From positions 1 to 40,505 of the forward strand of contig MNDR01000042.1 of NCBI GenBank assembly GCA_001915025.1: a stretch of 40,505 bases of DNA, written 5' to 3'. Below are positions 7,687-30,629 of this stretch, piece after piece. The DNA comes from Gemmatimonadetes bacterium 13_2_20CM_2_65_7 (GTDB lineage Bacteria; Gemmatimonadota; Gemmatimonadetes; Gemmatimonadales; GWC2-71-9). The first letter of the stretch is position 1, and each line of letters starts with the position of its first letter. The notes under the pieces are model-generated. The model ran no database searches. It was not told where the DNA came from and saw only the letters and a program-made list of their open reading frames with translations. Both the position numbers and the translations under genes were made by a program.

Positions 7687-10638
7687 TCAGGTTTTAGCCG
7701 GGCCCCGCTCGGGCTCGATCCGGACGGCGCAGATCTTCAGCTCCGCCATCTTCGCGTAGGGATCGAGCACCGGATTGGTGAGGAGGTTGGCCGCCGCTTC
7801 ACGGAAATGGAATGGAACGAATACCTGGCCGCGCGCGACGCGTTCCGTAATGCGCGCGGCGCTGACCATGGAGTTGCGGCGCGACGTGAGCCGCACCAGC
7901 TCGCCTTCACGGACGCCGATGTCCTTGGCATCCGCGGGATGAATCTCTACGATCGGCGTCGGCTCGCGAGCATCGAGCCCGCTCGCGCGGCGTGTCATCG
8001 TGCCGGTATGCCAGTGGTAGAGCTGGCGCCCCGTGTTCATGACGAAGGGATAATCGTCATCCGGCAGCTCCACCGGGTCGGTGTATTCCACGGGAACGAA
8101 CGTGGCGCGGCCGTCCGACGTGGGGAATGCGTGGTCGAACAAAAACGCCGTACCCGGATGATCAGTCGTGGGCACCGGGTACTGCAGCCCCGCGCCTTCC
8201 AACCGGTCGTACGTGACCCCCGCCCAGCTCGGCGTCAGCGCCGCGATCTCGCGCATGACGTCTTCCGCCGAACGGAACGTCGTCGGCAAGCTGAGGCGCT
8301 GCGATAAGTCGATCAGGATATCGAGGTCGGCCCGCGCGTCACCGGGGCAGTCGATGGCTTTGCGGCCGATCTGAATCCGCCGTTCCGTATTGACAAACGT
8401 GCCCGTTTTCTCGGCAAAGCTGGAGCCGGGCAAGACGACGTCGGCGTACCGCGCCGTCTCGGTCAGAAAGAGATCGTGCACTGCCAGGAACTCGAGCTCC
8501 TGGAACCAGTGCTCGGCGTGCGCGATGTCGGGGTCGGAGATGATGGGGTTCTCGCCCATGATGTACATGCCGCGCACCGCGCTCTCGGGACGGACCACCT
8601 CGGTCACCATCAGTCCTTTTTCGAGCGAGAGCGATTGCGCCGGCACGTTCCAGGCGCGCGCGAAGCGGTCGCGGACGGTACGATCGCCGACCGGCTGATA
8701 GTCGGTGTAGACGAACGGGATCGCGCCCACGTCCGATGCGCCCTGCACGTTGTTTTGTCCACGGATCGGGAGCATGGTGGCACCCCACCGTCCGATCATC
8801 CCGCAGGCGAACATCAAATTGAGCAGTGAGGTGACGATGTCGGTGCCGTTGGCGTGCTGCGTCAGCCCCATCGCCCACAGCGTGCTGGTGTTCGGCCCAC
8901 GCGCATAGATCTCGGCGGCGCGGCGAATCTGCTCGGCGGGGATGCCGGTGATCTTCGCGGCTTTGTCCGGCGTGTACGGCTTTACGGCCGCGCGGACCTT
9001 CTCGAAATCGTGCGTGCGCGTCGCGATGAAGTCCCGGTTTTCGAGGCCCAACGCGAGAATGTGATGCAGCATCGCCGAATAGAGGGCGACGTCGGTCCCT
9101 GGCTGCATCTGCAAGTGGATGTCGGCGCGGCCGGCGAGCTCGGTCCGGCGCGGATCGGCGACGATCAACGTGGCGCGCTTCTCGTGCGCGCGTTTCAGCG
9201 CGGCGCCGAACACGGGATGCGACTCCGTCGTGTTCGCACCGGCGATGAAGATCACGTCGCAGGCCGCTTCGATCTCGCGCATCGAGCCGGAGGCAGCCGC
9301 CGTATTGATCGCGCGCTGCATCGCCGCAACGGACGTCGAGTGACACAAGCGTGTGCAGTGATCGACGTTGTTCGTTCCCAACGCGCCGCGAAACATCCGC
9401 ATGATCAGGTAATTCTCTTCGTTGGAGCACTTCGCCGACGAAAAACAGGCGAGCGAATCCGCGCCACGCGCGCCTTTGATCCTGAGCAGCTCCTGCGCGG
9501 TGAGCTCGAGCGCTTCGTCCCACGTGGCTTCGCGGAATGGCGAGTACCATTCGTCCGGCGTCGCCACGCGGTCCCGAATGTCCATGTCGATCCGTTCCAG
9601 CAGCGGCAGCTCGCGCACGGTTTTGCCAGTGGCGCGGGGCGGGGTACCGGGTTTGGGGCGCTGGCCTTCTCCCTCGATCGTGCGCCACGGTCCGCCGCGC
9701 CGGTCGGCTCCCGTGGGTCCTTTCCATAACCAGCGGCCGTTTGCTTTGGTCCAGCCTGTTCGAATCAGCGGCCGTACCAGTCGGTCGCGGTGCTGAGGGA
9801 AGTCGTAGCCGAAGCGACCCTTCACGCAGGTCGATCCCTGGTTCGGGGTGTTCAGCTCGATGTCGGGCGACGTCACGCGAACGATTTTGTTGTCCGCGAC
9901 GTGAAGGTCGACCTGGCAGCCGACGCCGCAGTAGGGACACACGGAGCGAACGACTTTGTCGGGATGACGGATCTGCTGGGGAGCGAACCGTTGCCGCGGC
10001 ATCACCTCGAAAATCGCGCCCGTCGGGCAGACGCGAACGCATTCACCACACCACGTGCACCCCGCTTTATCCGGATCGCCATCCGCACCGACGATGATTT
10101 CGGCGTGCTCACCCCGCCACCCGACGTCGAGGACGCCGACGACCTGAATGTCCTCGCAGGCCCGCACGCAGCGGGTGCATAAGATGCAGGTCGACATGTC
10201 GTGGCGGATCATCGGATCGCCCGGCCGCTCGTCGCCCGAGCGCAACGGCAGATCCCGGTCCTCTATCGCCGTTGGAACGACGTCGTACTCGACCAGGTAG
10301 CGCTCGAACTCGTTGCGCGGCTGGGCTCGACCGCCGTTGCGGAGATGCTCAGCCGGGTACCGCTCGGCGAGCAGCTTCAAGACGCCGTGGCGATTCTCGA
10401 CGGCCGCGTGCGATCGCGTCGTCACGACCAGGCCGTCGGCGACCTTGGTGGCGCAGGCCGGAATCAGTTTGGGTTGGCCTTCGACTGAAACAAGGCAGAT
10501 CCGACAATTGCCGACGATCGACAGCGTGGGATACCAGCAGAGCGTCGGAATTTCGATGCCCGCTTGCCGGGCGGCATCGAGAATCGTGCGCCCTGCTTCG
10601 ATCGAGATCTTGTGTCCGTCGATCTGTAATGCGGGCAT
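7687..10638 (-). CDS. fdhA: Formate dehydrogenase alpha subunit (molybdopterin, Cys-type), with N-terminal 2Fe-2S and 4Fe-4S domains
   Basis: CILCTRCVRACEDIQ, CTWCGECVRVCPTGA, CPYCGVGCQVDLHV, NNVDHCTRLCHSTSVAAM (Cys at the active-site region), MGENPIISDPD. Confidence 0.9.
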   Translation of the reverse strand: MPALQIDGHKISIEAGRTILDAARQAGIEIPTLCWYPTLSIVGNCRICLVSVEGQPKLIPACATKVADGLVVTTRSHAAVENRHGVLKLLAERYPAEHLRNGGRAQPRNEFERYLVEYDVVPTAIEDRDLPLRSGDERPGDPMIRHDMSTCILCTRCVRACEDIQVVGVLDVGWRGEHAEIIVGADGDPDKAGCTWCGECVRVCPTGAIFEVMPRQRFAPQQIRHPDKVVRSVCPYCGVGCQVDLHVADNKIVRVTSPDIELNTPNQGSTCVKGRFGYDFPQHRDRLVRPLIRTGWTKANGRWLWKGPTGADRRGGPWRTIEGEGQRPKPGTPPRATGKTVRELPLLERIDMDIRDRVATPDEWYSPFREATWDEALELTAQELLRIKGARGADSLACFSSAKCSNEENYLIMRMFRGALGTNNVDHCTRLCHSTSVAAMQRAINTAAASGSMREIEAACDVIFIAGANTTESHPVFGAALKRAHEKRATLIVADPRRTELAGRADIHLQMQPGTDVALYSAMLHHILALGLENRDFIATRTHDFEKVRAAVKPYTPDKAAKITGIPAEQIRRAAEIYARGPNTSTLWAMGLTQHANGTDIVTSLLNLMFACGMIGRWGATMLPIRGQNNVQGASDVGAIPFVYTDYQPVGDRTVRDRFARAWNVPAQSLSLEKGLMVTEVVRPESAVRGMYIMGENPIISDPDIAHAEHWFQELEFLAVHDLFLTETARYADVVLPGSSFAEKTGTFVNTERRIQIGRKAIDCPGDARADLDILIDLSQRLSLPTTFRSAEDVMREIAALTPSWAGVTYDRLEGAGLQYPVPTTDHPGTAFLFDHAFPTSDGRATFVPVEYTDPVELPDDDYPFVMNTGRQLYHWHTGTMTRRASGLDAREPTPIVEIHPADAKDIGVREGELVRLTSRRNSMVSAARITERVARGQVFVPFHFREAAANLLTNPVLDPYAKMAELKICAVRIEPERGPAKT

Positions 10639-10689
10639 GCCTCATATAGATACACGCCCCGCCTGCGGCGCAAGTCTTGATGCTGATCG

Positions 10690-10727
10690 AACCCGGCGCT
10701 GTGACATGCCCATCACAGCGCCGGGTT
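10690..10727. terminator. Perfect 15-bp inverted repeat (possible terminator or operator)
   Basis: AACCCGGCGCTGTGA-CATGCCCA-TCACAGCGCCGGGTT; arms 10690-10704 and 10713-10727, 8-nt loop. No strong T tract on either side. Confidence 0.6.
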
Positions 10728-10752
10728 GAACCTCAATTTTCGACTGTAGGAA

Positions 10753-10920
10753 TCAGACTTTCGGGTCTATCGGTAGGTGGCGATGCGTGTGATCGCCATC
10801 TTCTCCCTCGTCGGTAAACCAGCAGTAGGCCCAGATCTTGGCGGGTCGCAGGACCAGTTGGCCGGCCCGCAGGATGATGCCCATCGGTTCATCGTCAAGG
10901 ACGAGCGGGAGAGTGGTCAT
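10753..10920 (-). CDS. Small hypothetical protein, 55 aa
   Basis: Reverse strand MTTLPLVLDDEPMGIILRAGQLVLRPAKIWAYCWFTDEGEDGDHTHRHLPIDPKV*; below the ORF-track cutoff; the only sensible ORF in an otherwise empty ~370-bp gap. Confidence 0.5.
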   Translation of the reverse strand: MTTLPLVLDDEPMGIILRAGQLVLRPAKIWAYCWFTDEGEDGDHTHRHLPIDPKV

Positions 10921-20351: not shown

Positions 20352-21662
20352 TTGGCTGGTCGCAGGCGCCTGCTCTTAACGATGAGCGGTCTGGTTGTGG
20401 CTTGCGCTGGCGGGCCACGAACCGGACCTGTCACCCCGGCAGAAATCCCCGCCCTCAAAGCCCAAGCAGCACAGCAACCCCGCAACGCTCAGATCCAATT
20501 CCGACTCGCCGCCGCCCTCATGGCCGTGGGGCGGTGCGATACGGCCGTGGTCGTCGCGAAAGCCGGTCAGATGTTGGCCCCCGGCGAGGCCCTCGGCGCC
20601 ATGGTGATCGGCGGCTGTCAGGAGAAAGACGAGGGGGGGCGTTACGACCTCGCCTACGCGACCTACACGGACTTCGCCAACCGCTATCCGCAAGCCCGTG
20701 GCGTAGCGGCGGTTCGGGCACTCGGACAGCTCGCTCTTCGGACCCAAGCCACCCAGACGGCAAAGCTCGCGCTCGCCCGCGAGTCGACGCTCACCCCACA
20801 GGCTCCTGAGCCGTCGACGCTGGCGATCCTGCCGGTGACGATCGCCGGGGATTCGAGCCTTCAGCCGCTGTCGCGGGGACTGGCTGAAATGCTGACATCG
20901 GATTTGGCGATGGTGCGCAGTCTCCGGTTGCTCGAACGCATGCAGATTGGAACGCTGCTCGACGAGCTGAAACTCGCCCAAAGTGCCCGATCCGATCCCG
21001 CAACAGCCGCACGCGTGGGGCGATTGCTGCGGGCCGAGCGGATGGTACAGGGCGTCGCGGCCATTACAGAGAACGGGCCAGTGCGGATGTCGGCGACGGT
21101 CGTACGCGGCGACGGCACCGTGCGGTCCGGCGCGCAAGCCAACGGCACGTTCAAGCAGCTGCTCGAGCTCGAGAAGCAGCTCGTCTTCGGCCTCGCGACG
21201 CAGCTCGGCATCCAACTGACCGATGCCGAGCGGCAGCGAATCTTGCGCCAAGGTCCGAAGAACCTCGCAGCGTTCCTCGCGTACAGCCGGGGACTCGAGG
21301 CGTTGGATCGCGGTGATTACCGCGCCGCGGCTGCCGCGTTCGGCGCCGCCGTGCGCGCCGATCCGTCATTCCAGGCGGCCCAGCAACAACAGCAGGCGGC
21401 CGCCGCCGCGCCCGCGGTGCAGGCGTCGCCGGGCGATGTCGTGACGGTCGTCGAAGCGGTGGCGCAGCTCACGACGCCGACCGAGCCGGCCTCGGTGGGT
21501 GTGTTGCAGCAGACCACTGTAGACGTGTCGCAGATCGGCGCGGACATCACTCCGCAGACCGGAGCTCAGAGCACCGTGAGTCACCCGACGCCCGAGAGTC
21601 AGGGCATTTCGAACATCGGACAAGTGACTGGCGTGTTACGGATCATCTTCAAGCGGCCATGA
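20352..21662 (+). CDS. Lipoprotein with TPR-like repeats and CsgG-like domain
   Basis: Lipobox-like GLVVACAGG; STLAILPVTIAGDSSLQPLSRGLAEMLTSDLAMVRSLRLLERMQIGTLLDELKLAQSARSDPATAARVGRLLRAERMVQG resembles CsgG/FlgT-type domains. Confidence 0.65.
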   Translation: MAGRRRLLLTMSGLVVACAGGPRTGPVTPAEIPALKAQAAQQPRNAQIQFRLAAALMAVGRCDTAVVVAKAGQMLAPGEALGAMVIGGCQEKDEGGRYDLAYATYTDFANRYPQARGVAAVRALGQLALRTQATQTAKLALARESTLTPQAPEPSTLAILPVTIAGDSSLQPLSRGLAEMLTSDLAMVRSLRLLERMQIGTLLDELKLAQSARSDPATAARVGRLLRAERMVQGVAAITENGPVRMSATVVRGDGTVRSGAQANGTFKQLLELEKQLVFGLATQLGIQLTDAERQRILRQGPKNLAAFLAYSRGLEALDRGDYRAAAAAFGAAVRADPSFQAAQQQQQAAAAAPAVQASPGDVVTVVEAVAQLTTPTEPASVGVLQQTTVDVSQIGADITPQTGAQSTVSHPTPESQGISNIGQVTGVLRIIFKRP

Positions 21663-22774
21663 TCACGGCGCGCTGGTGGCTGCTCCTCATCATTGCCAGC
21701 GCGCTCGTCCCCGCAGTTGGCGCTGCACAGGGCACGACTGCGACTGCGCGCAGCGGCGTGTACTTCGAGTCGTACAGGTTCGGGTCGGGACTCGCGTTCG
21801 ATCGGATCAGCGAGTTTACGATTCCCATCAGCGTCACACAGCGTCTCGGCGACCGGCTCGCTCTTGATATCGGCACGGCATTCGCTAGCGCTTCAGTGCG
21901 GCTGGCTGGCGGCGGCAGCATTGATCATTCGGGTCTTATCGACACCGACCTTCGAGCCACATTAGGCGTGATTCCTGGGAAGCTCGTCTTCAATCTCGTG
22001 GGCACGATTCCAACCGGTGCCACAGCGGTGCCAGACACCACGATCCCATTGTTCGGCGCGACCGCAACGGATGTCCTAGGCTTCACAACTCCGAGCTTTG
22101 GCACGGGCGGCGGCATCTCGGCGGGATTTGCGTCCGCGTTCAAGATGTCGTCGGATTGGGCGATCGGAACCGGCATGAGCTATCGCCACGGCGCGAGCTA
22201 CACACCGGTGACGGGCGGCGGTACGCTCACGCCGGGCGGCGAGGTGCGCGTCCGATTCGGCTTAGAGGGGCCGTTCGGAGGCGGGAAGTATTTTCGCGGC
22301 GCGCTCGTCTACACGACGACAGGCGCGAACGATATCGGCGGCGGGCGCCAGAGCTCGATCGGCGACCGTATCCTCGCGTACGGCGCGGTCAGCATACCCT
22401 TCGGCCGATCGCACCTGGCCCTGTACGGCTGGGAAATGCGGCGATTGCGCGCGCGGAACTTCGACGCACCCGCTACACTGGCCGTGCCGCGCGGCAATGT
22501 GCTCGCGCTCGGCGCGCGGCTCGAGCGGGCCCTGACACCGCGCGCGACGCTCGTGCCGACGTTGGAATTTCGGCACGAGCTCACTGGGCCCACTGCCCGG
22601 ATGGAGCTGCTTGGCTTTCTCGTGCGCACAGGCACGGATCTGCGATACCAGATCAGCAGCTCTGCCACAGGTGTGATTCAGGCATCGCTTGCCTTCGGCA
22701 CGCTGCAGGACCAAGGCACTAAGGTCTCCATCTTTGGTCGGCGTCTCGGTGCGCTGATCGAGTGGTCCCGGTGA
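21659..22774 (+). CDS. Outer-membrane beta-barrel protein
   Basis: Signal peptide MITARWWLLLIIASALVPAVGAAQG; ATGA overlap with previous gene; alternating strands typical of transporter-like barrels. Confidence 0.65.
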   Translation: MITARWWLLLIIASALVPAVGAAQGTTATARSGVYFESYRFGSGLAFDRISEFTIPISVTQRLGDRLALDIGTAFASASVRLAGGGSIDHSGLIDTDLRATLGVIPGKLVFNLVGTIPTGATAVPDTTIPLFGATATDVLGFTTPSFGTGGGISAGFASAFKMSSDWAIGTGMSYRHGASYTPVTGGGTLTPGGEVRVRFGLEGPFGGGKYFRGALVYTTTGANDIGGGRQSSIGDRILAYGAVSIPFGRSHLALYGWEMRRLRARNFDAPATLAVPRGNVLALGARLERALTPRATLVPTLEFRHELTGPTARMELLGFLVRTGTDLRYQISSSATGVIQASLAFGTLQDQGTKVSIFGRRLGALIEWSR

Positions 22775-25700
22775 CTCGCTCAAGCGCCGCGCCCTGGCGT
22801 TGGCGCGCGTTGGCGGTGCTCGTCGGGGCGCTCGGACTCAACTGCACTGATGCGACGGGTCCCGGTCGCATCAATGGAAGGCTCGTCCTGATGCCCGCTT
22901 TCGAGAGTAAAGCGGCGAGCCAAATCGATTTCGACCGCATGCGCGTTACGATCGTCCACACCAATCGGGCTGCGGTGCTTGATACGGTCATCTCGATTCC
23001 CTCGACGGTCGACACCATCGACGTCTCGCTGCGGGTCCCCCTCGCCTCCTCCAGCGAGGATTTCCTGCTCTACCTCCGCCTCGTGAACGCGGCTGGTGAT
23101 ACAGTGCTGCGCAACGAGCCGTACCCGCAGCAGGTCACGGTCTCGTCAGGAGGAGGGACGGCCGGGACGCCGGTGGCTGTCCTGCTGCGTGCGACGATTG
23201 CATCGGTTGTCGTGACGCCTCCGGAGGTCTCGTTCTCTTCCTTTGGTGACACGCAACGGCTCAGTGCCGTTGCCCTCGACCAGAACGGCGTTCCACTCAC
23301 CATACAGCCAGCTGCTTTCGTGTGGTTGTCTTCGGCGCCGGCAATCGCGTCAGTGAACCCGACCACGGGACTTGTAACAGCGGTCACGAATGGCAGCGCA
23401 ACGATTAGCGCAACGGCATCGGGTGTTTCCGGAACACTGCTCGTTGCTGTGAGTCAGGTCGCGACGCAGCTCGCGTTTACGACGTCCCCATCAACGGCGG
23501 CTGCCGGCATAATCATCGCTCCGCCGATCACCGTGGCGGCGCAAGACGCGCGGGGCAATGCAGTAACCGCGTTCATTGATCTGGTAACGGTCACAATCGG
23601 CGCGAATCCGGGGAACAGCGTTCTGACGGGGACTACCGCGAAGGCGGCGGTGGCCGGCGTCGCACAATTTGCGGACCTGCGTCTCGATCAGCCCGGCACC
23701 CAGTACACGCTGGTGTTTACGACGCCGAATCTGCCGCCGATCACCAGCGTGCCATTCGACGTTCTCGCGGCGCCCGCGACCGTGTACTGGACCAATGCCG
23801 CCGGTGGGTCGTGGACCACCGCTCGGCGGCTCCAGCGGAACCCAGACGCTCACTGTGCCGAGCCATACGCTGACGTTGAATGGCGCCGGAACGGTCACCG
23901 CCAATGGCAAGCTCCAACTTGTGAACGGCACTGTCGCGGGGGTCGGGCAGCTCATCAATAAGGGGACGGTGGACCTCGCCGCAGGTACGCTGGAAGCGCC
24001 GCTCGCGTTCAGGAATGAGGGAGTGCTCGCGCTACATGGCTACACCTACCTGAATGGGTCGGTAACGACGGTCGCGGGATCGGTGATGCGTTTGGAAGCG
24101 GACTACAGCAGCTCCTATTACAGCTACGCGACGATCGCAAGCGGTTTCACCAACAACGCCACAATTGAGCTCAACACGATCAACGGGCCCGGCTCGGTCG
24201 GCTTAACGGTCACGACGGGGACCCTGGCGAACGCGCCAGGCGCGGCGATCAACATACTGGCGGGGACAGGTGGGTCACGCCAACTCGATGCGGCGCTCGA
24301 TAATCAGGGCACAGTGGCGGTGGGCACTGCGACCACGTGGCAGCATGGCGCGTCGGCGACAACGCACCGCAACAGCGGCATCATCAACGTCAACGCCAAC
24401 CTGACGCTGAACGCGTACAGCTATCCTGTCAGCACCACATTCACGAACACAGGGACGATCACGGTCGCCGCCGGCGATACGCTCAAGGTGTCGTACGGAG
24501 CAGTCCACTACGCCGCCGGAACGTTGAATGGAAACGGAACAGTCTATCTGAGCTCCGACACGCTCTATTTGGGCCAGGGACTCAGCAATTCCGTCCTCAC
24601 ACTGCTCCTCGAGACTGCCACGGTGGATGGCCCTGGCACGTTTACGAACGCGACCGGCAAGGCGCTGGCGGTGAACGCCAGCACGATCAACGCTCCGATC
24701 GATAATCAGGGCCAACTGACGCTGCGAGGCTACAGCTATTTGAACGGCTCGGTCTCGACTGCTGCGGGATCGGTGCTGCGGATGGTGGCAGACTACTCGA
24801 CCTACTACTACAGCTACGCAACGGTGGCCAATGGCTTCACCAACAACGGTCTGATCGAGCTGACGTCGGTGAACGGAGCAGGGCCCGCATCGCTCGCGGT
24901 GACGACCGGCAAGCTGGTGAACGCGCCGGGCTCGGTGCTCAACGTCATACCCGGGTCTGGAGGAACGCGGCAGCTCGATCTGGAGTTAGACAATCAAGGC
25001 TCAATGACCATTGACGCTGCGACCTCGCTACGACACAGCGCGTCCGGAGCAGCACATCGCAACAGCGGCACTCTCGACGTCGGCGCAAACCTCACGCTCG
25101 ATCTCTATTCGTCCCCGGCGACCGGCACCTTCATGAACACCGGGACGATCAGCATAGCTGCTGGGGACTCGCTCAAGGCGTCGTACGGGGCGATCCATTA
25201 CGATGGTGGGACGTTGTCCGGCGCAGGGACCGTCGCGCTGACGAGCGATACCCTCTATCTGGGTCAAAGCTTTAGCAATTCCGTCGTTTCGTTGGTCCTG
25301 AACAGCGCGACCGTGAATGGCCCTGGCACGATTACGAACGCGACGAGCAAGACGCTCGTGGCGTCCGGGAGTACGATCAACGCCCCCCTCGTCAATCAGG
25401 GCCTGCTGCTGCTCCACAACTATTACAACAATCTGAATGGTACAGTTACGACTGCCGCGGGTTCGACTATGCGAGTCGAGGGAGATTACAACGCAGGCCC
25501 CGCGTACGTGACATTGGCAACCGGCTTCACGAATGTTGGAACGCTAGAGCTCACGACGATCAACGGGCCTAGCTTCGCGAGCTTTGCTGACACCGGTGGG
25601 ACATTGGTGAACGCGGCCGGTGCTACAATCGACATACTCGGCGGCACTGGGGGCAACTGCGAATTCGATGTAGAGTTGGACAACAAAGGCACCCTAAGTA

Positions 25701-28700
25701 TTGCAGCTCCGACGACGATGAGTCGCAGTAAAGTGGCGAATCACGTGAACAGTGGCACGCTGGACGTGAGCGGAGATCTGACAGTCAATCAGTATGGCTA
25801 TCCGGTGTCGAGCAGCTTTACAAACACGGGGTCCGTCACGGTCGCTGCGTCGCACGTCTGGAAAATCTCGTACGGTTCGTTTACGCACAGCGCAGGGACG
25901 TTGAGCGGTGCAGGGGCGCTCGATCTGAGCAATGTGACCGCGGGGAACTTTAGCGTCGCATACGCTCTGGGCGACCTGAGGCTCAACAACACCACGGCAA
26001 GCTTCGCGACCGATCAGTCAACGGCCACCACGACGTACACGCTCAACGGCGCGACCGTCAACGGCCCCGGATCGTTGATCAACGTGAGCGGGAAGACACT
26101 GGTGATCGCCGCGAGCACTATCAACTCGCCGCTGAATAACCAGGGGACGCTGACGCTGCACGGCTACTACAACAACCTCAACGGCCCCGTGACAACGGCA
26201 AGCAGCTCGCTCATCCGGGTGGAAGGGGACTACAACAGTGGTCCCGCTTATGTCACCGTTGCAAATGGTTTCACGAATAATGGGGCTCTCGAGCTGACCA
26301 CGATTAATGGGCCGAGCTTAGCGAGTTTCGCCGATACCGGTGGGTCGTTGGTGAATGGGGCAGCGGGAACAATCAACGTCCTCGCTGGGGCCGGCGGGAG
26401 TCGACAGTTCGATGTCGAGCTGAACAATCAGGGAGCGGTGAGTATCGGCGCACCGACCACGATGAGTCGCAGTAAAGTTGCTAACCACGTCAACAGCGGG
26501 ACGTGGGACGTGAGCGCCGGGGATCTCACCATCAATCAGTACGGCTCTCCAATAGCGGGAAGCTTTACCAATACTGGGGCGATCACGGTGCGGGCGTCTC
26601 GAGTCTGGAAGATCGTGTACGGCTCCTTCACCCACGGCACGGCCGGGAGTCTAGGCGGCGCGGGCGGGCTCGATCTGAGCAACGTGACTGCCGGGAATTT
26701 CAACGCCGCACTTACGCTTGGCGAGCTCCGGCTCAACAACTCGACCGCCAACTTCGCAACCGATCAGTCCACAGCCACGACAGCGTACACGATTAACGGT
26801 TCCACCGTCAATGGTCCGGGGCGATTGATCAACGCCAATGGTAAGACCTTGGCGATAGCCGCCAGTACGATCAACGCTCCTCTCGATAACCAGGGGACGC
26901 TGACCCTGCATGGCTACTACAACAACTTAAATGGGGCGGTGACGACAGCCGCGAGCTCGCTGATGCGAGTCGAGGGCGACTACAACGTCACGGGTCCAGC
27001 CTATGTGACTGTCGCGAATGGTTTCACCAACAACGGCACGCTCGAGCTGACGACGATTAACGGGCCAAGCTTTGCGAGCTTTTCGGACACTGGCGGAACG
27101 CTGGTGAATTCGAGCACGGGTGCCGTTAACGTGCTCGGTGGAGCCGGTGGCAATCGAGACTTCGATGTAGAGTTGAACAATCAGGGCACTGTCAGTATCG
27201 GTGCACCGACGAACATGAGCCGCGCCAAAGTCACAAACCATATCAACACTGGAACGCTCGACGTCAGTGGGGGTGACCTGACACTCAGCCTGTACGCGAC
27301 ACCGCTCGGCAGCTTTACGAACAATGGGACCATCACCATTGGCGCCGGGCGCGTGTGGAAGATCAGCTACGGATTCTTCACACACAATTCGGGCGGCTTG
27401 GGCGGGGCGGGCGCATTAGATCTGAGCTCGGTGTCGGCCGGAAACTTCAACGTCGCTCACACGCTCGGTGAGCTCCGGCTCAACAGTTCCACTGCCAACT
27501 TCGCGACCGACCAATCCACGGCTGCTACGGCATTCACGTTGAACAACGCGATCGTGAACGGACCCGGCATCTTCACCAATGCTGCGAGTAAGACGCTTGT
27601 AGTGTCCGCGACCACGCTTAACGCGCCGCTAGATAACCAGGGTACGCTGGCCCTACACGGGTACTACAACAACCTCAATGGGCCCATCACAACGACCGCG
27701 GGCTCAATCATGCGCGCGGAGGGAGACTACAACGCGAGCCCCGCGTACGTCACGGTCGCCAGCGGGTTCACGAATAACGGGACGCTTGAGCTTACGACGA
27801 TCAACGGACCGAGTTACGTAATTTTCGCTGATACTGGCGGCACGTTGGTGAACTCCACGAGCGCAGTTATCAACGTCCTCGGTGGAAGCGGCGGGACTCG
27901 CGAGTTCGACGTCGAGCTGAACAATCAAGGCACGGTCAACGTCGTAGCGCCCACGACCATCAACCGCGGCAAGCTGACGAATCACCTGAACAGCGGCACG
28001 GTGAACATCAGCGGCGGCGATCTCACACTCAACCAGTATGCCTCGCCGACGGCTGGCAGCTTTACCAACAATGGCACGGTACAGATCGGGGCCGGTCAGC
28101 AGTTGTCAATCCACTGCTGGTACGCTTTTCACCTTCAATCAATCGACCGTGAATGGGACGGGGACACTGACGAACGCTTCGCTCAAGACGCTCAGCGCTT
28201 ACTACAGCACGATCAATCTGCCACTCGTCAATCAAGGCGACCTGACGTTGCTGGGTTCGAGCAACCTCTCCGGGCCGGTCACGACCACATCGGGATCGAC
28301 GCTGCGCGTGCAGGGGGACAACTACGGATCGTACGCGACCGTCGCGAATGGCTTCACGAACAATGGCACGCTCGAGCTGACTTCGATCAACGGGGGAGGC
28401 TCCGCAGGTCTTGCCGTCATCACGGGAACGTTGATAAACGCTCTTAATGCAGTGATCAACGTGTTGCCTGGAACGGGCGGCTCCAGGCAGCTGGATTTTG
28501 AGTTGAATAACATGGGGTCGGTGAATATCGCTGCAGCCACAACCACGACCCATAATCCTGTAGCCGCGCACAGCAACAGCGGCATAATCACGCTTGGCGG
28601 TGGCGACTGGACCATCAACCAAGTTGACAACGGCAACTTCACCAACCTTGCGGGCGGGCTGATTGATCTCGGGCCGAGCAACATCCTGCACGTCACGTTG

Positions 28701-29099
28701 GGGACCGTGTCCAACGCATTGAACGGCAAAATTGTTGGTTCGGGTACATTTGACGTTCGCGTGCCGGCGCGGTACACGAACGACGGCGATCTCTCGCCCG
28801 GGAAGTCGCCCGGAATTCTAACGGTCGCCGGGGATCCAACCTTGTCGCCGACGAGCACGCTCACAATCGAGCTTGGTCAGAAGCCAACGGATCCATCTGA
28901 CCGGCTTGACGTAACGGGAAACGCGACGCTCGATGGCACGCTCGGGGTGAGTTCGCTGGCTGGAAGTTCCGCCGGCACCTTTACGGTCATGACCTTCAAG
29001 ACCAGCACGGGACAATTCGCACGGGTGTCTCCATTGCCCGCGAATTGCAATAGTCAGCCGATTTACACCCCGACGTCTGTTCAGATCGTCTGTTCATAA
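22771..29099 (+). CDS. Giant repeat-rich lipoprotein or surface protein (Ig-like N-terminus, ~7 beta-solenoid-type repeat units, DRLDVTG C-terminal domain), split by two frame changes near 23815-23825 and 28105-28115
   Basis: GTG at 22771 overlaps the previous TGA; lipobox LGLNC. Frame 1 up to WTNAAGGSWTTA (~23821), frame 2 LGGSSGTQTLTVPSHTLTLNGAG... to AGQQLSI (~28110), frame 3 STAGTLFTFNQSTVNGTGTLTNAS... GDLSPGKSPGILTVAGDPTLSPTSTLTIEL... to 29099. Confidence 0.75.
23960..28450 (+). repeat. Tandem protein-coding repeats, ~690-750 bp period, about 7 units (last one shortened)
   Basis: DNQG(T/Q)L(T/A)L(H/R)GY...LNG landmarks at about 24702, 25391, 26132, 26885, 27632 and 28226; spacings ~689, 741, 753, 747 and 594 bp. 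Confidence 0.85.
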
Positions 29100-29117: not shown

Positions 29118-30629
29118 ATGAAGCGTTTTAGTTTGCTGCTGGTCGGCGCAGGAGTGCTGGTGGGATGTGGCGGCGGTGACGGAGGAGGTGGTGGTCCGCC
29201 CACGATTACGTCGGTCGTCGTTAGCGGCGATTCGACCGTCTTCTTGAACGGCACCCGCCAGCTGACCGCTACCGCGAAATCGGGGACCACGACCGTGACT
29301 AACGGCGTCACGTTCGAGTGGGTGTCCGCCGACACCACTCGCGCGGTCGTGTCGGCCAGCGGCCTCGTATCCGGTGTCCGGTTAGGCGCGACGGACATCA
29401 CGGCGCGCGCGGTGGTGAACGGGACACCGACATCCGTCACCAGCTCCGCGCACCCGGTCCGCGTACGCATCGCCGCTATCGTCGTGACGCCAGTGAGTCC
29501 TGCGGCGCTCAATTTCGTGGGTGACACGCAGCGCTTTGCCGGCGAGCCGCGCGACGCCCAGGGCGTGGCCGTTCCCGGACTCACGATCACCTGGTCCTCG
29601 ACGGACACGGCATTGGCGATTGCCGCAAGCGGCCTCGCGACGGCAGTGCGCCGTACGAACGCGGGTGGACGCAACGTGCGTGTACGCGCGACGACGGACG
29701 GCGTCACCGACTCGAGCGTCCAGATCCTCGTGCGCCAGATCCCCGTTGCCGTGCATCTGAACCCGAGCACCTTCCCGACACTCGCGTCGCTTGGTCAAAG
29801 CGTGAACGCGGCATGCGTGGTGCTCGACTCCGCGAACGACACCATCCCCAATCATTCGTGCGGCTGGTCCATCACCGGGACCGACAGCGGCGTCGTCACC
29901 TTCAGCACGAACAACGCCCCCGCGACGCGCATCACCGGGCGCAAGAATGGCGACGCCAACATCCAGGCCACGGCGTTTGCCAGCATTTTCGCGCCGAATT
30001 TCATTCAGGTCAGGCAGGCGGCCGCGCGCGTGGTGCTTCACCCCACGACGCTCGATACGTCACAAATCGTTGTGAACGACTCGATGCGGTTCATCGATTC
30101 AGTGTTCGATGCGAATGACTCGCTGCTGAGCGCGCCACCGGCGGCCATCGTCTGGTCGTCCACCACGTCTTCCGCCACCGTGGATGCCAACGGCCACGTG
30201 ACGGCCGGCTCCGGCGCGGGCGCGACTTTCATCGTGGCAACGAGCGGCACGTCGAAGGACAGCGCGCTGGTGGTCATCGTTCCGGCCGCCAACGCGAGGA
30301 CGTTGAGCGGAGACGTACAGCCGATTTTTAGCCTGAACTGCGCCAGTTGTCACGACGGCGTCGGCACGTCGTTACCAGGCGTGCAGGACTTAACGGCGGG
30401 TCACTCGTTCGCGAGCATCGTGAACCATGCTGCGATTCAATCTGCCCTCAAGCGAGTACTTCCTTCGGTTCCCGATTCGTCCTACCTGGTGCACAAGATC
30501 CAGGGAACGAATCTCTTACCGCCCGCGAGGGGTTCCGGAGCGCGCATGCCGCTGAACGGAAATCCACTGAGCCGCGGCCAGATCAACACGATCCGTAACT
30601 GGATTCTGCAGGGTGCGAAAAACAACTAA
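29118..30629 (+). CDS. Lipoprotein with bacterial Ig-like (BIG2-type) domains and C-terminal c-type heme motif
   Basis: Lipobox LVGCGGG; repeats of (V)VVTP...STDTALAIAASGLATAV type; C-terminal DVQPIFSLNCASCHDG (CXXCH) and SGARMPLNGNPLSRGQINTIRNWILQGA. Confidence 0.75.
   Translation: MKRFSLLLVGAGVLVGCGGGDGGGGGPPTITSVVVSGDSTVFLNGTRQLTATAKSGTTTVTNGVTFEWVSADTTRAVVSASGLVSGVRLGATDITARAVVNGTPTSVTSSAHPVRVRIAAIVVTPVSPAALNFVGDTQRFAGEPRDAQGVAVPGLTITWSSTDTALAIAASGLATAVRRTNAGGRNVRVRATTDGVTDSSVQILVRQIPVAVHLNPSTFPTLASLGQSVNAACVVLDSANDTIPNHSCGWSITGTDSGVVTFSTNNAPATRITGRKNGDANIQATAFASIFAPNFIQVRQAAARVVLHPTTLDTSQIVVNDSMRFIDSVFDANDSLLSAPPAAIVWSSTTSSATVDANGHVTAGSGAGATFIVATSGTSKDSALVVIVPAANARTLSGDVQPIFSLNCASCHDGVGTSLPGVQDLTAGHSFASIVNHAAIQSALKRVLPSVPDSSYLVHKIQGTNLLPPARGSGARMPLNGNPLSRGQINTIRNWILQGAKNN

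Follow-up and report, generated by a model that had tools for sequence, protein, structure and literature searches.

The window, a stretch of 40,505 nucleotides, derives from a MAG of 2.68 Mb in 101 contigs that is 81.7% complete. It contains three successive genes, which encode a CsgG-like lipoprotein (gene 1), an outer-membrane β-barrel (gene 2) and a repeat-rich lipoprotein (gene 3). The question raised by this locus is whether these proteins act together and, if so, in what. A preliminary description had proposed a surface-display or adhesion system in which the first two proteins export or anchor the third. According to the analysis presented here, genes 1 and 2 constitute a conserved pair that might act as an outer-membrane station for the display of a family of lipoproteins sharing an N-terminal domain, here termed g3N. 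We assign this reading, in which complex formation, surface location and transport are all putative, a probability of roughly 0.5, based on gene organization, conservation, predicted folds and co-occurrence.

Gene layout of the locus

The features of the locus, all on the forward strand, are as follows:

20352..21662, +, gene 1: TPR/CsgG-like/TPR lipoprotein with disordered tail, 436 aa, TTG start (Pfam, AlphaFold2, homologue upstream of the barrel in 77/78 loci)
20808..21203, +, CsgG/TolB-N-like α/β domain of gene 1, residues 153-284 (Pfam, model, Foldseek)
21630..21659, +, conserved C-terminal strand-like motif of gene 1, VLRIIFKRP (homologue alignment, listed tails)
21659..22774, +, gene 2: outer-membrane β-barrel, 371 aa, 16 strands on the model (AlphaFold2, Foldseek)
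22771..23821, +, gene 3 part 1 (frame 1): lipoprotein signal, g3N domain, Big_2 domain
22795..23181, +, signal peptide and g3N domain of gene 3 (profile match 5.8e-42, the window not being independent of the profile)
23812..23830, +, gene 3 frame change 1 (approximately 35-45 residues missing compared with the relative L048)
23822..28110, +, gene 3 part 2 (frame 2): tandem β-helix-like repeats
28094..28112, +, gene 3 frame change 2 (approximately 50 residues of a repeat unit missing)
28110..29099, +, gene 3 part 3 (frame 3): last repeats and autotransporter-passenger-like end (weak NCBIfam match, 1.7e-5)

The start/stop overlaps reported at both junctions are present in the sequence, as ATGA between gene 1 and gene 2 (21659-21662) and as GTGA between gene 2 and gene 3 (22771-22774), where gene 3 starts. 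The TTG start of gene 1 is also used by most of the same-genus copies. The third gene had been described as encoding a lipoprotein of approximately 2100 residues. Its lipoprotein nature was borne out by a lipid-carrying cysteine that is invariant across the family; the length was not, as the region is covered by three ORFs in three frames (22771-23961, ~23822 to 28447 and ~28110 to 29099), which rules out a single ORF. Compared with relatives and with the protein's own repeat units, each frame change corresponds to a deficit of approximately 35-55 residues. The long open stretches on either side of the frame changes point to a misassembly or to a recent lesion; a misassembly is possible as the source is a MAG and the gene is rich in repeats, and a recent lesion or decay of the gene is possible as well. 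No translocator barrel domain was found by Pfam at the C-terminus of gene 3. Further downstream (29118-30629) lies another gene for a lipoprotein-like product, which matches Big_2 twice, ends in a CxxCH-type motif (NCASCHDG) and may carry haem; a relative of this gene is located directly 3' of the barrel gene in G008.

Genes 1 and 2 form a conserved pair

The barrel is encoded in 101 of 201 genomes (the window's own and its nearest 200), and the barrel family is spread over the whole class. The CsgG-like gene lies directly upstream in 77 of the 78 loci with room to test this. Since the same 4-base overlap of gene 1 and gene 2 was found in 31 of 38 related loci (the first measured set), this overlap is not due to chance. 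A scan of genome contigs with the gene 1 alignment identified the pair also in Zixibacteria, Ignavibacteria, Rhodothermia, KSB1, Poribacteria, Eisenbacteria and Fibrobacteres, and in 15 of 20 loci from other phyla or unnamed bacteria the two members are located within approximately 220 bases of each other. In several loci of the other phyla the pair is immediately preceded by genes for a Ser/Thr kinase and a second CsgG-domain protein, an arrangement suggestive of a larger regulated cluster. The second CsgG-domain protein was observed in this position in L233, L234, L192, L196, L184 and L213, preceded in most of them by the Ser/Thr kinase, and the kinases of L192 and L233, the two tested, carry a PEGA domain. 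A decaying copy of the pair, in which both genes have stops or frame breaks, is present in G335 (L367:4044-6597).

The CsgG-like character of gene 1 was confirmed by a match to Pfam CsgG (PF03783) at 6e-9, covering profile positions 33-96 of 210, together with weak TPR matches. In a single-chain AlphaFold2 model built with 34 homologues, in which pLDDT averages 77 and mostly exceeds 90 within folded regions, TPRs at residues 29-147 are followed by the CsgG-like α/β domain (153-284), by further TPRs (305-352) and by a disordered tail. Foldseek returned TPR proteins, the TolB N-domain and CadC, and CsgG only weakly, with a TM of ~0.2. The modeled CsgG-like domain possesses three strands of approximately 10 residues and no transmembrane hairpins. 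On the basis of this model a curli-type CsgG pore, the check on which had been named in the preliminary description, is rejected for gene 1. Homologues of gene 1 end in RIIFRxP or VTIVIRRP, preceded by a linker that varies in length; that the barrel is the binding partner of this C-terminal motif is a guess.

The assignment of gene 2 as a barrel stood as well. Its AlphaFold2 model has a barrel fold (mean pLDDT 91.5), and 16 strands were counted on the secondary structure of the model, with a helix in the loop after strand 5. The best PDB matches in Foldseek are OmpG, CymA and FadL, and the BcsC barrel follows further down at a TM of ~0.5. In Pfam, the window's protein matches no family at the cut-off; a weak BCSC_C match was obtained at 0.022. 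Among 35 barrels of the gene 2 family, none matches DUF560 at an E-value of 0.1 and a single one touches the TonB-receptor model, at 0.001.

The g3N lipoprotein family

The N-terminus of gene 3 carries a domain of approximately 115 residues with the invariant cysteine, g3N, for which no relatives were found in Pfam and PDB. The modules C-terminal to g3N are interchangeable and comprise Ig-like, cohesin and cupredoxin domains as well as repeats: the window's protein has Big_2 and repeats, L048 and L053 have repeats, L049 and L056 cohesin and L035 cupredoxin. A g3N lipoprotein is encoded directly after the barrel in approximately 17 genomes of f1, the window's family, and in some genomes of f3, f4, f5 and f6, and these linked genes often overlap the barrel gene by 4 bases. 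The f2 genomes show no g3N match behind the barrel, and most genomes of the window's genus have no g3N gene at the locus (G002, G003, G004, G007 and G008 carry the pair but lack a g3N gene after it). The majority of g3N genes lie apart from the pair, and many genomes encode further copies, some of them thousands of residues long; these many copies elsewhere rule out that the family is exclusive to the cassette. In a tree of 55 g3N domains the linked copies are not united and at least four changes of linkage are forced, so that an origin of the linked copies as one inherited clade is unsupported. The trio of the preliminary description thus holds in part: the pair is conserved, and the third gene is an interchangeable member of a scattered family that is broken in this assembly. 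A control in which the next gene encoded a lipoprotein in 56 of 474 cases is crude, as spurious ORFs count, and is given little weight.

In the other phyla, a search with the g3N profile resulted in no match at an E-value of 0.001, though the pair occurs there; Roseithermus sacchariphilus MEBiC09517, for example, encodes the pair and shows no g3N match. Divergent lipoproteins whose N-domain is of the same kind are nevertheless encoded after the barrel in Zixibacteria, KSB1 and Eisenbacteria, often with a 4-base overlap. When ten of these N-domains were compared with g3N profile to profile, the result was 97.9% with an E-value of 5e-13 over 126 columns including the signal peptide.

An acidic residue at position +2 to +4 after the lipid-carrying cysteine is present in 45 of 49 g3N proteins, mostly as a single acid, and in none of 12 CsgG-like lipoproteins. 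This difference suggests that gene 1 may face the periplasm and the g3N proteins the outside. Among other predicted lipoproteins, 10 of 23 have such an acid, and some members of this small set resemble unrecognized g3N proteins.

Several single loci deserve mention. In f2, giant g3N genes lying apart from the pair are followed by a gene for a small secreted protein (160-185 residues; L101:14379-14933, L102:1748-2281, L105:4637-5128), which overlaps the giant gene in L101 and L102; its product is a possible partner. A short ORF after the barrel at L050:6296-6508 has an end like that of L048, a same-genus relative of gene 3, and may be what a deletion has left behind. In G045, another contig carries a close g3N relative. 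In the Zixibacteria locus L233 the gene after the barrel (8102-10759) encodes a lipoprotein of 885 residues with a cohesin match, leucine-rich repeats and an asparagine synthase domain, which is odd for a surface lipoprotein and possibly results from a gene fusion.

Co-occurrence of the barrel and g3N

In 395 Gemmatimonadota genomes, searched with the barrel profile (E 1e-50) and with the g3N profile without Big_2 (E 1e-5), both were found in 103 genomes, the barrel only in 24, g3N only in nine and neither in 259, and the association persists at every cut-off tried. Shared ancestry was addressed by counting independent pairs on an rpoB tree. There, 12-13 supported independent pairs differ in the barrel, and g3N differs in the same way in 7-8 of these and in the opposite way in approximately one (median p 0.07; 0.039 with two long branches left out). 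The opposite case, G118, is a fragment of 57 residues; scoring it as absent, a post hoc decision, results in 8.2 versus 0.1 (p 0.008) and, in the reverse direction, in 9.9 versus 0 (p 0.002). Flagellin, used as a control of about the same patchiness, is associated with neither the barrel nor g3N.

Among very close relatives, G130 has both the barrel and g3N and G139 has neither, its CsgG-like gene also being gone; G335, with its decaying pair, shows no convincing g3N match. Both observations fit a co-loss of the pair and g3N. As exceptions, G042 lacks the barrel but encodes a g3N protein along with a truncated copy of gene 1, and in G019 g3N persists although the pair is absent. Since most of the genomes behind the g3N profile carry the barrel, a detection bias may enter the co-occurrence; the contrasts between close relatives speak against a pure detection bias without removing it. 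Taken together, the pair is probably functionally linked to the g3N lipoprotein family. In this wider form, the link from the first two proteins to lipoproteins like the third that the preliminary description drew from gene order is supported by the genome-wide co-occurrence, which extends to genomes where the genes are unlinked.

Proposed role and alternative explanations

In the proposed mechanism, genes 1 and 2 would form a two-part outer-membrane complex in which a porin-like barrel is joined by a TPR/CsgG-like lipoprotein facing the periplasm. This complex would serve lipoproteins that share g3N, gene 3 being one such client with repeat modules for display. At the inner face, the TPR/CsgG-like protein would receive the g3N lipoproteins, which the barrel would pass to the cell surface or hold there. 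Surface display of the g3N lipoproteins is somewhat favored by the evidence described above, and their transport by the pair itself is a tentative proposal. More tentative still is the reading of the pair as a previously unrecognized translocon (flippase) for surface lipoproteins in Gemmatimonadota and several related phyla, with g3N as the recognition tag of the clients and the display modules as interchangeable parts. Against a display station speak the 24 Gemmatimonadota genomes with a barrel and no g3N match, the resemblance of the barrel to ordinary porins and the modest p values of the tree-aware test (0.07 and 0.039).

The strongest rival is an arrangement similar to SusCD or TbpAB, in which the g3N lipoproteins are stable surface partners, as lids or receptors, of a ligand-uptake barrel and the CsgG-like protein acts as the receiver in the periplasm. 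The porin-like barrel with the helix after strand 5 and the binding-type modules (cohesin, Ig-like, cupredoxin) in which the clients end would suit this arrangement, lipoprotein-barrel complexes are plentiful in Bacteroidota (PMC12578637) and the same co-occurrence data fit. However, per genome one barrel stands against several g3N proteins that differ widely, some of them thousands of residues in length, and the barrel is not a TonB-dependent receptor by Pfam. We consider this arrangement unlikely. Slightly less probable is that the pair is a general envelope or signaling unit which g3N tracks through the same way of life, the third gene being a chance neighbor. The pair indeed occurs in other phyla without a match to the g3N profile and in f2 without the third gene, and the upstream kinase and second CsgG-domain protein of the other phyla would accord with signaling; yet coupled lipoprotein genes recur in several lineages and phyla, and the tree-aware co-loss, for which flagellin was null, would remain unaccounted for.

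An export of polysaccharide by the pair, as by TPR and barrel in BcsC, PgaA and AlgK/AlgE, with the lipoprotein binding the polymer at the surface, is improbable: the combination of TPR and barrel, the BcsC barrel among the Foldseek matches and the weak BCSC_C match favor it, but OmpG and CymA are the better Foldseek matches and no glycosyltransferase or synthase adjoins the pair in the neighborhoods that were read. The least probable explanation, that gene 1 forms an oligomeric secretion pore of the CsgG type for the repeat protein, draws on the partial Pfam CsgG match and conflicts with the hairpin-free model, with the poor structural similarity to CsgG and with the separate barrel, which is always present.

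Comparison with known systems

The combination of TPR and outer-membrane barrel, with lipoprotein clients that are often encoded nearby, resembles Slam, the type 11 secretion system (DUF560; NilB, HrpB) (PMC8406197). In Slam, however, the barrel is of the DUF560 (SlipAM) type, which is absent from the 35 barrels examined here, the TPRs are fused to the barrel, whereas here they reside on the separate CsgG-like lipoprotein, and the clients share a C-terminal barrel, whereas the shared client domain g3N is N-terminal. The holdfast anchor HfaABD of Caulobacter likewise has a CsgG-like protein co-encoded with a putative surface protein, and the surface localization of the proteins co-encoded with the CsgG-like HfaB depends on HfaB (PMC6707917). 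HfaB is thought to be the pore itself, whereas a separate barrel is found here and the CsgG-like domain is predicted to have no membrane strands. The pair is somewhat like Slam or HfaB and, by the features compared, a member of neither.

With the curli channel CsgG the locus shares the CsgG-like domain on a lipoprotein; CsgG is a ring-shaped oligomer with two transmembrane β-hairpins per subunit, whereas the model of gene 1 has none and carries TPRs on both sides of the domain. SusCD and TbpAB resemble part of the loci in that barrel and lipoprotein are encoded together, but here the barrel is porin-like with 371 residues, no TonB-dependent receptor is involved and many different clients exist per barrel. 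Type V autotransporters possess a C-terminal translocator barrel, which gene 3 lacks. By the features tested, the cassette is neither a CsgG channel nor an autotransporter nor a SusCD system, and the pair would achieve the display of lipoproteins across the outer membrane with parts different from those of the known systems. In the literature nothing was found on CsgG in Gemmatimonadota or on CsgG with cohesin.

How surface lipoproteins cross the outer membrane outside the Proteobacteria is an open question; for Bacteroidota, a 2025 study on BAM described the crossing as unresolved and the flippase as still to be found (PMC12578637). For related phyla, the pair is a specific candidate, which recurrent operons, co-occurrence and shared losses connect with a defined family of clients, and g3N is a conserved lipoprotein domain absent from Pfam. 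The acidic residues just behind the lipid-carrying cysteine of the g3N proteins resemble those of the surface lipoproteins of Bacteroidota, where acidic residues near this cysteine drive surface export (PMC5080379). In the export signal of Bacteroidetes a polar or basic residue is followed by at least two acids at +3 to +5, whereas the g3N proteins usually have one, at +3 or +4.
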